A DNA stretch of 35,126 bases from Ghiorsea sp. (GTDB lineage: Bacteria > Pseudomonadota > Zetaproteobacteria > Mariprofundales > Mariprofundaceae). The notes under the pieces are model-generated. The model saw only the letters and a program-made list of their open reading frames with translations. It was not told where the DNA came from and ran no database searches. Positions 1-5,487 of this stretch are shown here, piece after piece. Where the stretch lies: positions 1-35,126 of the forward strand of contig JALUNK010000086.1 in the NCBI GenBank assembly GCA_027055255.1. The letters are read 5' to 3'. The stretch's first letter is position 1. Each line of letters opens with the position of its first letter. Both the position numbers and the translations under genes were made by a program.

Positions 1-218
1 TTAAATTGTATCAGCCCTTGTTTGTAATAAGTGTACATACCAAACAACGCTGTCACACCCACGATAAACAAGGAATATGCGGTTGCTTCAGCCGCACCCA
101 CACCCATCAAAAAGACAAGAATAGGCACAGTCAGGATAGAGCCTCCTGCGCCAAACACGCCAAGGCTCATACCCATAATTAAAGAGGCTGCAAGCCCCAG
201 CAACAGCATCATATCCAT
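1..218 (-). CDS. TauE/SafE family sulfite exporter-like permease, N-terminal part (truncated by window edge)
   Basis: Reverse-strand reading from ATG at 218 gives MDMMLLLGLAASLIMGMSLGVFGAGGSILTVPILVFLMGVGAAEATAYSLFIVGVTALFGMY..., with the GxxGAGGSxLTVPxL signature; open to the window edge. Confidence 0.85.
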   Translation of the reverse strand, partial: MDMMLLLGLAASLIMGMSLGVFGAGGSILTVPILVFLMGVGAAEATAYSLFIVGVTALFGMYTYYKQGLIQF

Positions 219-224
219 ATGCTT

Positions 225-641
225 TTACTTCTCGACTGGGTAACCAGCAGCTTTCCAGCCCTGCATGCTTTCAGGAATATTTTCAACGCTAAACCCTGCT
301 TTAGCTAAAATAGTTGAAGCCTTGGCAGCGCGTTTACCCGAATGGCAATAAACATAAACTTGTTTGTCTTTAGGCACTTCATTCATGCGCTCTTTTATTT
401 CAGACACTGGAATATTCACAGCACCCGGAACATGGCCTGCTTTGTATTCTTCAGGTGTACGCACATCAACAAATACGAATGGAATAGGTGAATTTCTGCC
501 TTGTTTCCAATGATTATATGCATGGATAATCGGTGCATTTTCATAACCTTGAGGTGTCATTTCCCCAACGCCGCAAGCATAAATACTTGTTGTTGCAGTC
601 AACATCAGACCTAAAACCAATATTTGAATTTTCTTTAACAT
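225..641 (-). CDS. Exported rhodanese-domain protein
   Basis: ORF track 225..728; the likely start is the internal Met (MLKKIQILVLGLMLTATTSIYACG..., signal peptide). Rhodanese motifs FVDVRTPEEYKAGHVPGAVNIP and active-site loop VYCHSGKR. Confidence 0.9.
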   Translation of the reverse strand: MLKKIQILVLGLMLTATTSIYACGVGEMTPQGYENAPIIHAYNHWKQGRNSPIPFVFVDVRTPEEYKAGHVPGAVNIPVSEIKERMNEVPKDKQVYVYCHSGKRAAKASTILAKAGFSVENIPESMQGWKAAGYPVEK

Positions 642-703
642 ACTTTTCTCCTTTTTTATTTGAACAGCCTCTAAACAGCGGCTTTTTGTTGTGTTTAACT
701 TCT

Positions 704-1393
704 TTATGATTCTTTGCTTAACCCGCACTTCAAGTTAGCTGGTACAGCTTCATGAATGCGCTTAGGCATAGGCAGATTTAAATTATTCATCAAATCCACA
801 AATCCTTGCCTTCCCAACTTCACCCTAGGGTTATGTGCTTTTTCTTCTGCCACGGTTGAAAGCATCATGCCTTTATAATCATGGCCGGGATAAACAATGG
901 TATCATCCGGTAGGGTATAAATTTTCTCAGTAATGGATGTATAAAGGGTATCCGCACTACCCGCTTGAAAATCGGTGCGTCCACAGCCACGGACAAATAG
1001 CGCATCACCGCTAAAAATCATGCCATTCGTTACAAAAGATAAGCAGCCTGATGTATGACCCGGTGTTTCCAACACACGCAATGTAAAAGCTCCGAAATGA
1101 AGCTCATCACCTTCTTGAAGCGGCACATCTACACACTCCACAGCTTCAGATGCCGCAACACCTGTTTGGCAACCTGTACGCTGACGCAGCAAGCCTGAAC
1201 CTGTGATATGATCGGCGTGAACATGGGTATCTACCACATATTTAAGCGTCAAACCAAGCTCTTCAGTCAGCTTTACATCGCGCTCAACCTGCTCAATCAC
1301 GGCATCAATAATAATCGCTTCTTTGCTTTTTTCATCAGCAAGCAAATAGGTGTAAGTCCATGTTGCTTCATCAAATAATTGTCTTACAAACAT
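704..1393 (-). CDS. MBL-fold metallo-hydrolase, ETHE1/persulfide dioxygenase-like
   Basis: Metal motif THVHADH, plus TPGHTSGCLSF, FSGDALFVRGCGRTDFQ and YPGHDY typical of ETHE1-like proteins; located among rhodanese genes. Confidence 0.88.
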   Translation of the reverse strand: MFVRQLFDEATWTYTYLLADEKSKEAIIIDAVIEQVERDVKLTEELGLTLKYVVDTHVHADHITGSGLLRQRTGCQTGVAASEAVECVDVPLQEGDELHFGAFTLRVLETPGHTSGCLSFVTNGMIFSGDALFVRGCGRTDFQAGSADTLYTSITEKIYTLPDDTIVYPGHDYKGMMLSTVAEEKAHNPRVKLGRQGFVDLMNNLNLPMPKRIHEAVPANLKCGLSKES

Positions 1394-1426
1394 ACTGACC
1401 TCCTTACCTTTATGATTTGTTTAAAT

Positions 1427-1756
1427 TTAACCTTGTAATGTTGGGTAGCCTGCTGCTTCCCAAGCCATAATACCACCCATGACATTGGTGACATGCGCAT
1501 AACCTTTTTGCATCAAAAAGCGTTGCGCTTGCCCTGAACGCGCGCCAGAACGGCAGCTCAAATAGATGTTTGCATCCTTAGGTAAATCCAAGGTGTCAAT
1601 TTGGCCCAAAGGATGATTTTTAACCAAAACACAATCAGGGCGAAGGGCTTTAAACTCTTCTTCTGTGCGTACATCTATCCAATGGTCAAAATCACCTGTT
1701 TCTACAACGTGATGAAAATCTTGTACTGTTGCTTCCATATCTTCTCTCCATTCCAA
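1427..1756 (-). CDS. Cytoplasmic single-domain rhodanese
   Basis: WIDVRTEEEFKALRPDC, active-site loop LSCRSGARSGQA, GGIMAWEAAGYP C-terminus; no signal peptide. Confidence 0.88.
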   Translation of the reverse strand: MEWREDMEATVQDFHHVVETGDFDHWIDVRTEEEFKALRPDCVLVKNHPLGQIDTLDLPKDANIYLSCRSGARSGQAQRFLMQKGYAHVTNVMGGIMAWEAAGYPTLQG

Positions 1757-1812
1757 TCGCTAAGGATTAATCTCTGAATTTTAGTGTGCGAAACATTAGC
1801 GATATTCTTTAA

Positions 1813-1828
1813 ATTAGCAATAGCTAAT
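1813..1828. promoter_or_regulatory. Putative operator (inverted repeat ATTAGC-AATA-GCTAAT)
   Basis: Perfect 6-bp inverted repeat, 57 bp upstream of the 1756 start codon; near-identical copy upstream of the ArsR gene at 3302-3317. Confidence 0.6.
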
Positions 1829-1873
1829 ATACTAATTTATAACCGCGTAAAAAGTAAGGTTTGAAAAATAGGC

Positions 1874-1903
1874 ATAAAAAAAGGCTGCTTATAAGCAGCC
1901 TTT
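1874..1903 (-). terminator. Rho-independent terminator of the 3282-1911 unit
   Basis: Perfect palindrome AAAGGCTGCTTATAAGCAGCCTTT (1880-1903), followed on the - strand by a T-run (AAAAAAA on +), just after the stop of the 1911..2303 gene. Confidence 0.85.
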
Positions 1904-1910
1904 CTCAATG

Positions 1911-2303
1911 TTAACGTTCGATTTCGAAGCCAGCGCCGCGCCAACCGCGCATACTCGCCTTCATATTGATGATATTATCAAAGCCCGCATCAACAAGTAT
2001 ATGCGTTGCTTTGGTAGAGCGGACACCTGATTCGCAATACACAAATACTTTGCCCGATTTCGGCACTTCAGCCAAATGGTCTGCTAGAACTTGAACAGGG
2101 ACATTCTTTGCACCCGGGACATGACCAGCAGCATATTCTTGCGGCGTACGCACATCCAAGAATAAGAAAGCTTCATTCTGTTTGCCTTTAAGCAATACTT
2201 GATGCGCTTCTTCTACGCTTGCAAGCGCTGCACCTTTAACCTGCCCATCATCACAAGCTGAAACCAACAAACCAGTCAGCACAATCAACCATAACTTTTT
2301 CAT
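1911..2303 (-). CDS. Rhodanese-domain lipoprotein
   Basis: MKKLWLIVLTGLLVSAC lipobox, FLDVRTPQEYAAGHVPGAKNVP, active-site loop VYCESGVRS. Confidence 0.9.
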   Translation of the reverse strand: MKKLWLIVLTGLLVSACDDGQVKGAALASVEEAHQVLLKGKQNEAFLFLDVRTPQEYAAGHVPGAKNVPVQVLADHLAEVPKSGKVFVYCESGVRSTKATHILVDAGFDNIINMKASMRGWRGAGFEIER

Positions 2304-2312
2304 ATTATCCCC

Positions 2313-2726
2313 TTATTTTCGTGGCAATTGCGCAGCACACCAGCTACCAAAACCACCTGCAAAATTATAAACATCCTTATGCCCTGCTTTGGCAATCATA
2401 CTCGCCGCCATCGCTGAACGCATACCCGCTGCGCAAATCAATACGACAGGTTTATCCATAGAAATCTTATTCATTTTTTGTTCAAATTCATTTAAAGGAA
2501 TATGAATAGCATTCGCTGGATGCCCACCGTTCCATTCACCTGATGAACGCACATCCACCAAAGTATGGTCTTCTTTAAAATCGGGGTATGCACCCGCAGT
2601 CATCTTTTTAATACCTAACATTTTTGGCTTTATCACCCTTCCCCAAACCATCCAGCCAACAATCGCAAATGCGATGATCAGTGGTAAATTATCTTGAACC
2701 CATGCCATGGTTAGCAGGTCTTGCAA
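2313..2726 (-). CDS. Membrane-anchored rhodanese
   Basis: N-terminal TM (LPLIIAFAIVGWMVWG) followed by a rhodanese domain: LVDVRSSGEWNGGHPANAIHIP, LICAAGMRSAMA, FAGGFGSW. The start could also be the Met at 2708. Confidence 0.88.
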   Translation of the reverse strand: MQDLLTMAWVQDNLPLIIAFAIVGWMVWGRVIKPKMLGIKKMTAGAYPDFKEDHTLVDVRSSGEWNGGHPANAIHIPLNEFEQKMNKISMDKPVVLICAAGMRSAMAASMIAKAGHKDVYNFAGGFGSWCAAQLPRK

Positions 2727-2926
2727 GCGGCTTCAGATTTAAGGCCTAACTTTTTCAAGATGATGCCCATCAAGCACCACTGCGTTATGCCTGATTGAAA
2801 TAAGTTTGCACCCACAAACAAGGTAAACCATAACCATGTTGGCTCTGAAAGTGGTGCGCCTGACAACACCACCGACAACATGATAAAAAATCCTGCAACT
2901 ACATGAATAATACGTTCTACTGACAT
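2711..2926 (-). CDS. DUF2892 (YgaP-type) small membrane protein
   Basis: 71 aa, VERIIHVVAGFFIMLS...LFVGANLFQSGITQWCLMGIILKKLG, resembling DUF2892/YgaP membrane-domain proteins; C-terminal CKTC. Confidence 0.8.
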   Translation of the reverse strand: MSVERIIHVVAGFFIMLSVVLSGAPLSEPTWLWFTLFVGANLFQSGITQWCLMGIILKKLGLKSEAACKTC

Positions 2927-2964: not shown

Positions 2965-3282
2965 TTATTTTTTAGCGCAAACATCAGGGCAATAAATGCC
3001 TTGAAGCGCGGTGAGAAGGTTTTCAAACTCAGGGTTAGCAATGCTGTAATACACTTGCTGACCACGCTTCTCATTAGTCAAGATACCCATCATGCGCATT
3101 TTAGATAAATGCTGGGAGAGGTTAGATTGCGATGAACCTGTGCGTTCAATCAAATCGTGTACGCACAGCGGGCCACTCATCAAATGGCATAAAACAGACA
3201 AGCGAACTTCATGCGCAATAGCTTTCAATCCTTCACTTGCTGTACTGATTTTTTCTTGAGGTATCATTTCCATAGAGCGCAT
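2965..3282 (-). CDS. ArsR/SmtB-family transcriptional regulator, YgaV/BigR-like
   Basis: wHTH core GLKAIAHEVRLSVLCHLMSGPLCVHDLIERTGSSQSNLSQHLSKMRMMGIL; Cys in VLCHLMSG and IYCP occupy places expected for sulfide-responsive ArsR proteins. Confidence 0.88.
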   Translation of the reverse strand: MRSMEMIPQEKISTASEGLKAIAHEVRLSVLCHLMSGPLCVHDLIERTGSSQSNLSQHLSKMRMMGILTNEKRGQQVYYSIANPEFENLLTALQGIYCPDVCAKK

Positions 3283-3299: not shown

Positions 3300-3319
3300 A
3301 TATTAGCAATAGTTAATAT
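3300..3319. promoter_or_regulatory. Putative operator (ATATTAGC-AATA-GTTAATAT)
   Basis: Inverted repeat with one mismatch, 17 bp upstream of the ArsR start (3282), sharing ATTAGCAATAG(C/T)TAAT with 1813-1828. Confidence 0.6.
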
Positions 3320-4758: not shown

Positions 4759-5487
4759 CTATTTATGCAAGTTATCATCAAAGCTTTGGTGCAACCACAT
4801 CGGCAGCTTCAAGCCATATTGCTGTAAAAGTTTGCGATTCTCTTTGTAGTTCGCATCAAACTTTTTGACATCCTGCCAAAAGGCTGGCGAGTGGTTCAAA
4901 TGTTTGAGGTGGGTTAACTCATGAATAAGCACATGCCGCACCAAAAAGTCAGGCAGAAATAAAAGCCCTGCATTAAGGTTGATATTTTTTTTCGCAGAGC
5001 AACTACCCCAGCGCCTTTTCTGCAAACGAATAGCAACCGTGCCATAAGATAAACCCATTTCTTGCGCCACAACAGCAAGCCAGGGTTTCAAATATTGCCT
5101 GCCCTTTTTCTTTACCCATGCTAACAAAGCTTGGCGCACTTGCTCTTTATCATCCATGTCACCTGTAACTGTGAGCATGAAACCCTGCTCGCTCAACTGA
5201 ATACGTGAAAGCGAGGAAGGTTGATAATCAAGCGCCCACTTCTGCCCCAAAGCCACAAAATCAATGATTTCTGGCAAATCTATGTTGGTTCTTTCTTGAA
5301 TGTTTAACGTTGATAACTGCTTAAGCACCCAAGCTGTATGCTGCGTCAACATAGACTGCATATACCGCTTAGGCATACGATGCGGCCATACAAGCTCGAC
5401 TTCGCCATAGTTACTGATGGTCAAGCGCGGACGCTTAGCACGTTTAGAAAGTCTAAGCTGCCATGTGAAAGGATAATCAGCGTTCAA
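4759..5487 (-). CDS. YgjP-like (DUF45/M48-type) metal-dependent hydrolase
   Basis: RWGSCSAKKNINLNAGLLFLPDFLVRHVLIHELTHLKHLNHSPAFW, an HExxH motif in the typical context. Confidence 0.9.
   Translation of the reverse strand: MNADYPFTWQLRLSKRAKRPRLTISNYGEVELVWPHRMPKRYMQSMLTQHTAWVLKQLSTLNIQERTNIDLPEIIDFVALGQKWALDYQPSSLSRIQLSEQGFMLTVTGDMDDKEQVRQALLAWVKKKGRQYLKPWLAVVAQEMGLSYGTVAIRLQKRRWGSCSAKKNINLNAGLLFLPDFLVRHVLIHELTHLKHLNHSPAFWQDVKKFDANYKENRKLLQQYGLKLPMWLHQSFDDNLHK

Follow-up and report, generated by a model that had tools for sequence, protein, structure and literature searches.

The cst operon of Staphylococcus aureus is a gene cluster under sulfane-sulfur control that combines rhodanese domains, a persulfide dioxygenase and TauE. 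The yrk cluster of Bacillus licheniformis has the same kind of content and control (PMC9918477), and the BigR operon consists of an ArsR-type regulator, a DUF442–ETHE1 protein and TauE (PMC5823870). In Rhodobacter capsulatus, SqrR controls sqr and a rhodanese (PMC9995734). Here we analysed a 35,126-nucleotide stretch of DNA (the window) from Ghiorsea sp., a vent bacterium that oxidizes iron. The window forms the start of contig C86 in a 2.0-Mb genome of 85% completeness. The window carries four rhodanese genes together with genes for a repressor, a YgaP-like membrane protein, a dioxygenase and TauE. We read this cassette, with a probability of about 0.62, as a sulfide/sulfane-sulfur response (detoxification) regulon of iron-oxidizing Zetaproteobacteria that serves both faces of the inner membrane.

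The genes lie on the minus strand in two transcription units. Reading 5′ to 3′, the first unit comprises an ArsR/SmtB-family repressor (2965..3282; PF01022), a YgaP-like transmembrane protein (YgaP-TM) that corresponds to the membrane domain of YgaP but is encoded on its own (2711..2926; PF11127, E 5.6e-13), a membrane-anchored rhodanese with one N-terminal transmembrane (TM) helix (2313..2708) and a lipoprotein rhodanese (1911..2303). The second comprises a cytoplasmic single-domain rhodanese without signal or TM segment (1427..1738), an ETHE1-type dioxygenase of the metallo-beta-lactamase fold (704..1393), an exported rhodanese with a signal sequence (225..641) and a TauE/SafE permease (3..218; PF01925, E 6.5e-10, 39.5 bits), of which the contig end leaves the N-terminal 72 residues; the complete gene is present in relatives (for example, at locus L090). 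Between the lipoprotein- and cytoplasmic-rhodanese genes lies an intrinsic-terminator-like hairpin (1876..1904, minus strand), which was missed by a pattern scan, although folding supports it (−20.5 kcal/mol for the RNA of 1870–1912).

As the sequence-only reading had it, the locus holds four complete and distinct rhodaneses. All match PF00581 (E 2.8e-20, 3.7e-11, 9.4e-19 and 3.2e-19; 43.8 to 73.1 bits, cut-off 22.2), and each has the catalytic Cys in a CxxGxR loop—CHSGKR in the exported, CRSGAR in the cytoplasmic, CESGVR in the lipoprotein and CAAGMR in the membrane-anchored enzyme. Their likely starts are ATG 641, ATG 1738, ATG 2303 and ATG 2708; for the cytoplasmic enzyme, TTG 1756 is the less likely start, and orthologues begin at the codon equivalent to ATG 1738. 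None of the four reaches the NCBIfam cut-off for the PspE equivalog (best 57.5 of 102 bits) or the GlpE equivalog (best 55 of 102 bits). Four of the five rhodanese matches in the genome fall inside 2.5 kb here, and because just one further match exists, a 343-residue frame, the clustering is not a matter of chance. A plasmid-borne origin was considered and rejected, the TM rhodanese having no plasmid match.

By full-length homology (residues 1–226) to the Myxococcus-type enzyme 4ysb (E 3.3e-78) and human ETHE1 4chl (E 1.9e-77), and by the aligned metal-ligand motifs THVHADH (HxHxDH), CGRTDFQ (GRTDFQ) and YPGHDYKG (GHDY), the metallo-beta-lactamase protein is an ETHE1-type persulfide dioxygenase. 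YgaP is defined by a rhodanese and PF11127 in one polypeptide; in the window these are two separate adjacent genes. One family member without the TM-type rhodanese (genome G016, locus L105) instead encodes a rhodanese joined to a YgaP-type TM domain in a single frame, together with ArsR, dioxygenase, exported rhodanese and TauE.

The repressor has an ArsR fold with both sensing cysteines, C32 and C98 aligning with those of SqrR, and its best PDB matches are SqrR (6o8l/13ct), HlyU, YgaV and BigR. Equivalogy with Blh or BigR was rejected on the curated cut-offs, the BigR equivalog NF040642 scoring 59.4 bits against 155. Both units are preceded by a common palindrome, ATTArCnATnGyTAAT: ATTAACTATTGCTAAT (3302..3317) lies upstream of arsR and overlaps a promoter-like TTGCTA-17-TATAAT, and ATTAGCTATTGCTAAT (1813..1828) lies upstream of the cytoplasmic-rhodanese unit. 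Across 16 genomes of the genus, ATTARCNATNGYTAAT has nine exact matches, every one of them within this locus. Relatives carry long near-perfect palindromes (32/36 at L090 and 34/36 at L095), in which differing flank bases keep the symmetry. The search for further regulon members elsewhere in the genome gave no other exact operator match, and one-mismatch places on contigs C3 and C67 were not well above the control count. The common palindrome points to co-regulation of the two units; together with the SqrR-like cysteines, it supports, short of proof, persulfide control of the cassette. An adjacent ArsR is absent at 29/29 sampled family loci outside Ghiorsea, and regulation by ArsR thus appears lineage-specific. 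At 14 loci, two of them in the same genome, the rhodanese set contains or adjoins a regulator of the Crp/Fnr family, in many cases with a GQSCMLTT motif (for example, L090:5294–5938 and L178:8649–9305); none was seen at the window's locus.

The sequence-only reading had assigned the four rhodaneses to four different locations. The predicted locations do differ, but the four collapse into two compartments. In the TM rhodanese, acidic or neutral residues precede the single helix and a lysine/arginine-rich stretch follows it (the net charge changes from about −0.7 to +2.0 across the helix); 44/46 orthologous ORFs of this type are more positive after the helix. By the positive-inside rule, this charge distribution most likely places the catalytic domain in the cytoplasm, and it disfavours a periplasmic domain. 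The lipoprotein rhodanese has a good lipobox (LVSAC) after its signal sequence, with Asp at +2. By a rule established in E. coli, Asp at +2 retains lipoproteins at the inner membrane, and the rule may hold in this class too. The exported rhodanese carries SIYAC followed by G, matching the PROSITE lipoprotein pattern, as do 26/34 regex matches of its type; Ala-Cys-Gly after the signal is invariant in the genus, and the pattern is not matched by several orthologues from Ghiorsea that have Gln at −4. The call is ambiguous, and the exported enzyme may be a second lipoprotein. Given the predicted cytoplasmic domain of the TM-anchored enzyme and the lipobox match of the exported one, we place, with moderate confidence, two rhodaneses on the periplasmic and two on the cytoplasmic face of the inner membrane.

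A neighbourhood search for conservation, proposed with the sequence-only reading, yielded a three-type, multi-compartment core that runs through the family and a four-rhodanese form confined to Ghiorsea. A TM-rhodanese profile recovered 54 family members and just two other genomes (399 phylum members sampled, E ≤ 1e-22); the TM type was absent from at least 20 family members, many of them incomplete genomes. At 43 sampled family loci, the YgaP-TM gene is always near the TM rhodanese (43/43), and at 40 of them three or more rhodaneses fall within 5 kb (of the three exceptions, two are at contig ends), the membrane-anchored, exported and cytoplasmic types being kept side by side across the family. 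Other neighbours are TauE (20 of the 43 loci), sulfide:quinone reductase (SQR) within 6 kb (18) and the dioxygenase (11). The lipoprotein type accompanies the TM type at 14/14 Ghiorsea loci sampled and is present at 0/29 other family loci, and ArsR has the identical split; both are lineage features and so lend linkage no independent support. The full set of four occurs at 9/14 Ghiorsea loci, counting L088, in which a frame shift, possibly a sequencing error, splits the lipoprotein rhodanese (4866–5265). Two Ghiorsea genomes carry, in place of the second unit, genes for an OsmC-like protein, a two-part protein resembling glutaredoxin and another, distinct cytoplasmic rhodanese with the loop CLSGGR (L091:4435–5823 and L094:4739–6144). 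No comparable set appeared outside Zetaproteobacteria among the 80 closest dioxygenase loci, a survey anchored on the dioxygenase and blind to cassettes that lack one.

The set might have proved to be a common cassette already on record. We found no description of it in the open-access literature on rhodanese with Ghiorsea or Zetaproteobacteria, or on multi-compartment rhodanese clusters; the three-enzyme, family-wide core seems previously undescribed, and every part of it is of a known kind. The sequence-only reading did not mention that two units share an operator, that the YgaP-like partner is split off as its own gene or that a link to SQR extends across the family.

As a response regulon, the cassette would work as follows. 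By homology with its relatives, the SqrR/BigR-like ArsR would bind the palindrome before both units and release it when persulfide rises. The persulfide source would probably be SQR, whose gene neighbours the set in numerous sister genera; a distant homologue lies elsewhere in this genome. On the periplasmic side, two lipid- or signal-anchored rhodaneses would handle sulfane sulfur; on the cytoplasmic side, one TM-tethered and one soluble rhodanese would do so beside the split YgaP-type membrane protein. The rhodaneses would move sulfane sulfur back and forth between thiols and thiosulfate or polysulfide, the cytoplasmic dioxygenase would convert thiol persulfide to sulfite, and TauE would presumably export the product. 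Points that count against this reading are the BigR and PspE scores below their cut-offs, the lack of an adjacent ArsR at the family loci sampled outside Ghiorsea, the position of SQR outside the Ghiorsea cassette with a merely distant homologue in this genome, and the doubt over the thiol substrate.

Within this reading, each rhodanese may simply act in its own compartment without hand-over, turning persulfide and sulfite into thiosulfate or the reverse, a version to which we give even odds. It has a precedent in E. coli, which has a separate periplasmic PspE and cytoplasmic GlpE (PMC2593051), and it sits well with the exported gene, which varies in position within the locus and is missing from 5/14 Ghiorsea loci; that the TM, exported and cytoplasmic types stay tightly linked across the family hints instead at a common task. 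Such a task could be the sulfane-sulfur relay across the envelope that the sequence-only reading had suggested: periplasmic lipoprotein rhodaneses would take sulfane sulfur from polysulfide or thiosulfate and pass it to the pair of YgaP-TM and TM rhodanese, from there to the cytoplasmic rhodanese and the dioxygenase, and the resulting sulfite would leave through TauE. Several observations favour it: rhodaneses of all three kinds—membrane-anchored, periplasmic and cytoplasmic—are retained together across the family, YgaP-TM always accompanies the TM rhodanese, and the linkage to an ETHE1-type dioxygenase and TauE was confirmed in this locus and in most Ghiorsea. The hand-over itself is another matter, as the same observations are explained by detoxification that runs in parallel in the two compartments. 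With its single helix, the TM rhodanese offers no evident conduit, the three rhodaneses are kept in numerous sister genera with neither dioxygenase nor TauE nearby, and no TusA/DsrE-type carrier was recognized among the cassette genes of the window. We regard a directed relay as unlikely, and parallel action as at least as likely.

A different proposal is that the cassette serves growth on sulfide or thiosulfate, not detoxification. Zetaproteobacteria count as oxidizers of iron (and hydrogen). The SQR that neighbours the rhodanese set in sister genera is canonical in the sole one tested (L178), a full-length match to A. ferrooxidans SQR (507 bits), and this linkage would suit energy metabolism, as would the sqr reported in Ca. 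Ghiorsea MAGs (PMC8042907); against it, Mariprofundus isolates are described as obligate iron oxidizers (PMC4643136). We consider this role quite improbable. In Ghiorsea, SQR lies outside the cassette, and the homologue in the window's own genome is distant, a 486-residue protein (L110:1261–2721, on contig C185) unlike the canonical SQR of sister genera and conserved in most Ghiorsea genomes, mostly at 94–97% identity. Sulfur oxidation genes beyond sqr are reported missing from Ca. Ghiorsea MAGs (PMC8042907); despite this report, L008 (listed with L097), which bears the name of one of these MAGs, RB_MAG_00008 (Ca. Ghiorsea rimicarensis), holds the full cassette.

The thiol that would carry the persulfide was approached through its biosynthesis. 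The GshB N-domain was not found in any of the 23 genomes of the order tested but was detected in E. coli and in several members of the phylum, and the thiol substrate of the dioxygenase is therefore uncertain; glutathione, whose persulfide ETHE1-type enzymes oxidize to sulfite, is itself in doubt. Matches to PF02955 were rejected as glutathione synthetase, the one tested being RimK, and a search with PF08886 matched none of its controls and so carried no information. Glutamate–cysteine ligase (PF04107) is present in 16/16 family or order genomes tested, with one copy (G007) passing TIGR01436; in the Zetaproteobacteria tested it is of the plant/alpha type (for example, L186 on contig C210 of the window's genome, G000, and L185:5494–6858). 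The thiol may be gamma-glutamylcysteine, or glutathione obtained through an unrecognized synthetase or by import. The Zetaproteobacteria tested carry glutathione-type enzymes, such as the ETHE1-type dioxygenase, with no canonical GshB detected. A more ambitious reading, which we rate as a long shot, would make YgaP-TM, the TM rhodanese, the exported lipoprotein rhodanese and the cytoplasmic rhodanese, often with SQR, a dedicated module of Zetaproteobacteria for sulfane-sulfur transfer across the inner membrane that uses a non-glutathione thiol, perhaps gamma-glutamylcysteine, and to which Ghiorsea added the CESGVR lipoprotein.

Kinship and loops bear on whether the four enzymes are interchangeable. 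Orthologues within the genus are 49–99% identical and paralogues 23–44%, the exported and lipoprotein types forming the closest pair (44%) and the remaining pairs reaching 23–37%. In a tree built on a short alignment, with several weak inner branches, the TM, cytoplasmic and exported/lipoprotein groups separate, with the exported and lipoprotein types pairing up; the fourth, lipoprotein enzyme therefore probably arose by duplication, and it may share the periplasmic location of the exported type. The loop is near-constant in orthologues of the TM type (CASG[MNGATQI]R, with CAAGMR a window-specific variant) and of the lipoprotein type (CESG[VK]R), and it varies within the genus in the exported type (CHSGKR, CRSGKR, CHSGVR, CRSGVR and CEAGVR). 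Differences such as Glu in CESGVR, Ala in CASGxR and His or Arg in the exported type may reflect a choice of acceptor or donor. The earlier argument that different loops mean different acceptors is plausible for the near-invariant CESGVR and CASGxR and fails for the exported type. Recent tandem duplicates in one location, which had been named as a possible undoing of the idea, are ruled out by the identities and the tree, and simple redundancy of recent copies with the same role is highly improbable: the grouping of the exported and lipoprotein types speaks for it, but every other pair is more divergent, and each type forms a separate clade, for the most part with a distinctive loop.

A multi-compartment rhodanese set that is conserved and comes with a persulfide-type sensor offers a tractable case for asking whether sulfane sulfur crosses the inner membrane by protein hand-over, and bears on how iron oxidizers cope with sulfide. 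Among described systems, the repressor's best match of solved structure is SqrR; the genes of the SqrR regulon are scattered, and the available part of the source describes no multi-compartment rhodanese cassette. Ghiorsea differs from E. coli with its YgaP, PspE and GlpE in having PF11127 as a separate gene, a rhodanese with an N-terminal helix of its own and the whole set in a single locus. Cable bacteria likewise combine SQR and a dioxygenase with rhodaneses in both periplasm and cytoplasm (PMC13047784); in the available part of that account, the dioxygenase is fused to a rhodanese (Rho-PDO), and an ArsR/YgaP-TM cassette of the Ghiorsea layout is not described. Unlike the Ghiorsea cassette, cst and yrk have a CsoR-family sensor and TusA/DsrE carriers, and are not known to include a periplasmic lipoprotein rhodanese. 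On gene content, the locus resembles the bigR operon of Xylella and Agrobacterium (BigR, Blh and TauE), sharing with it an ArsR-type repressor with a cysteine pair, an ETHE1-type dioxygenase, sulfurtransferase and TauE. In the bigR operon, however, a single DUF442 sulfurtransferase is fused to the dioxygenase, whereas Ghiorsea has four separate PF00581 proteins, some of them exported or anchored, in two units with two operators.
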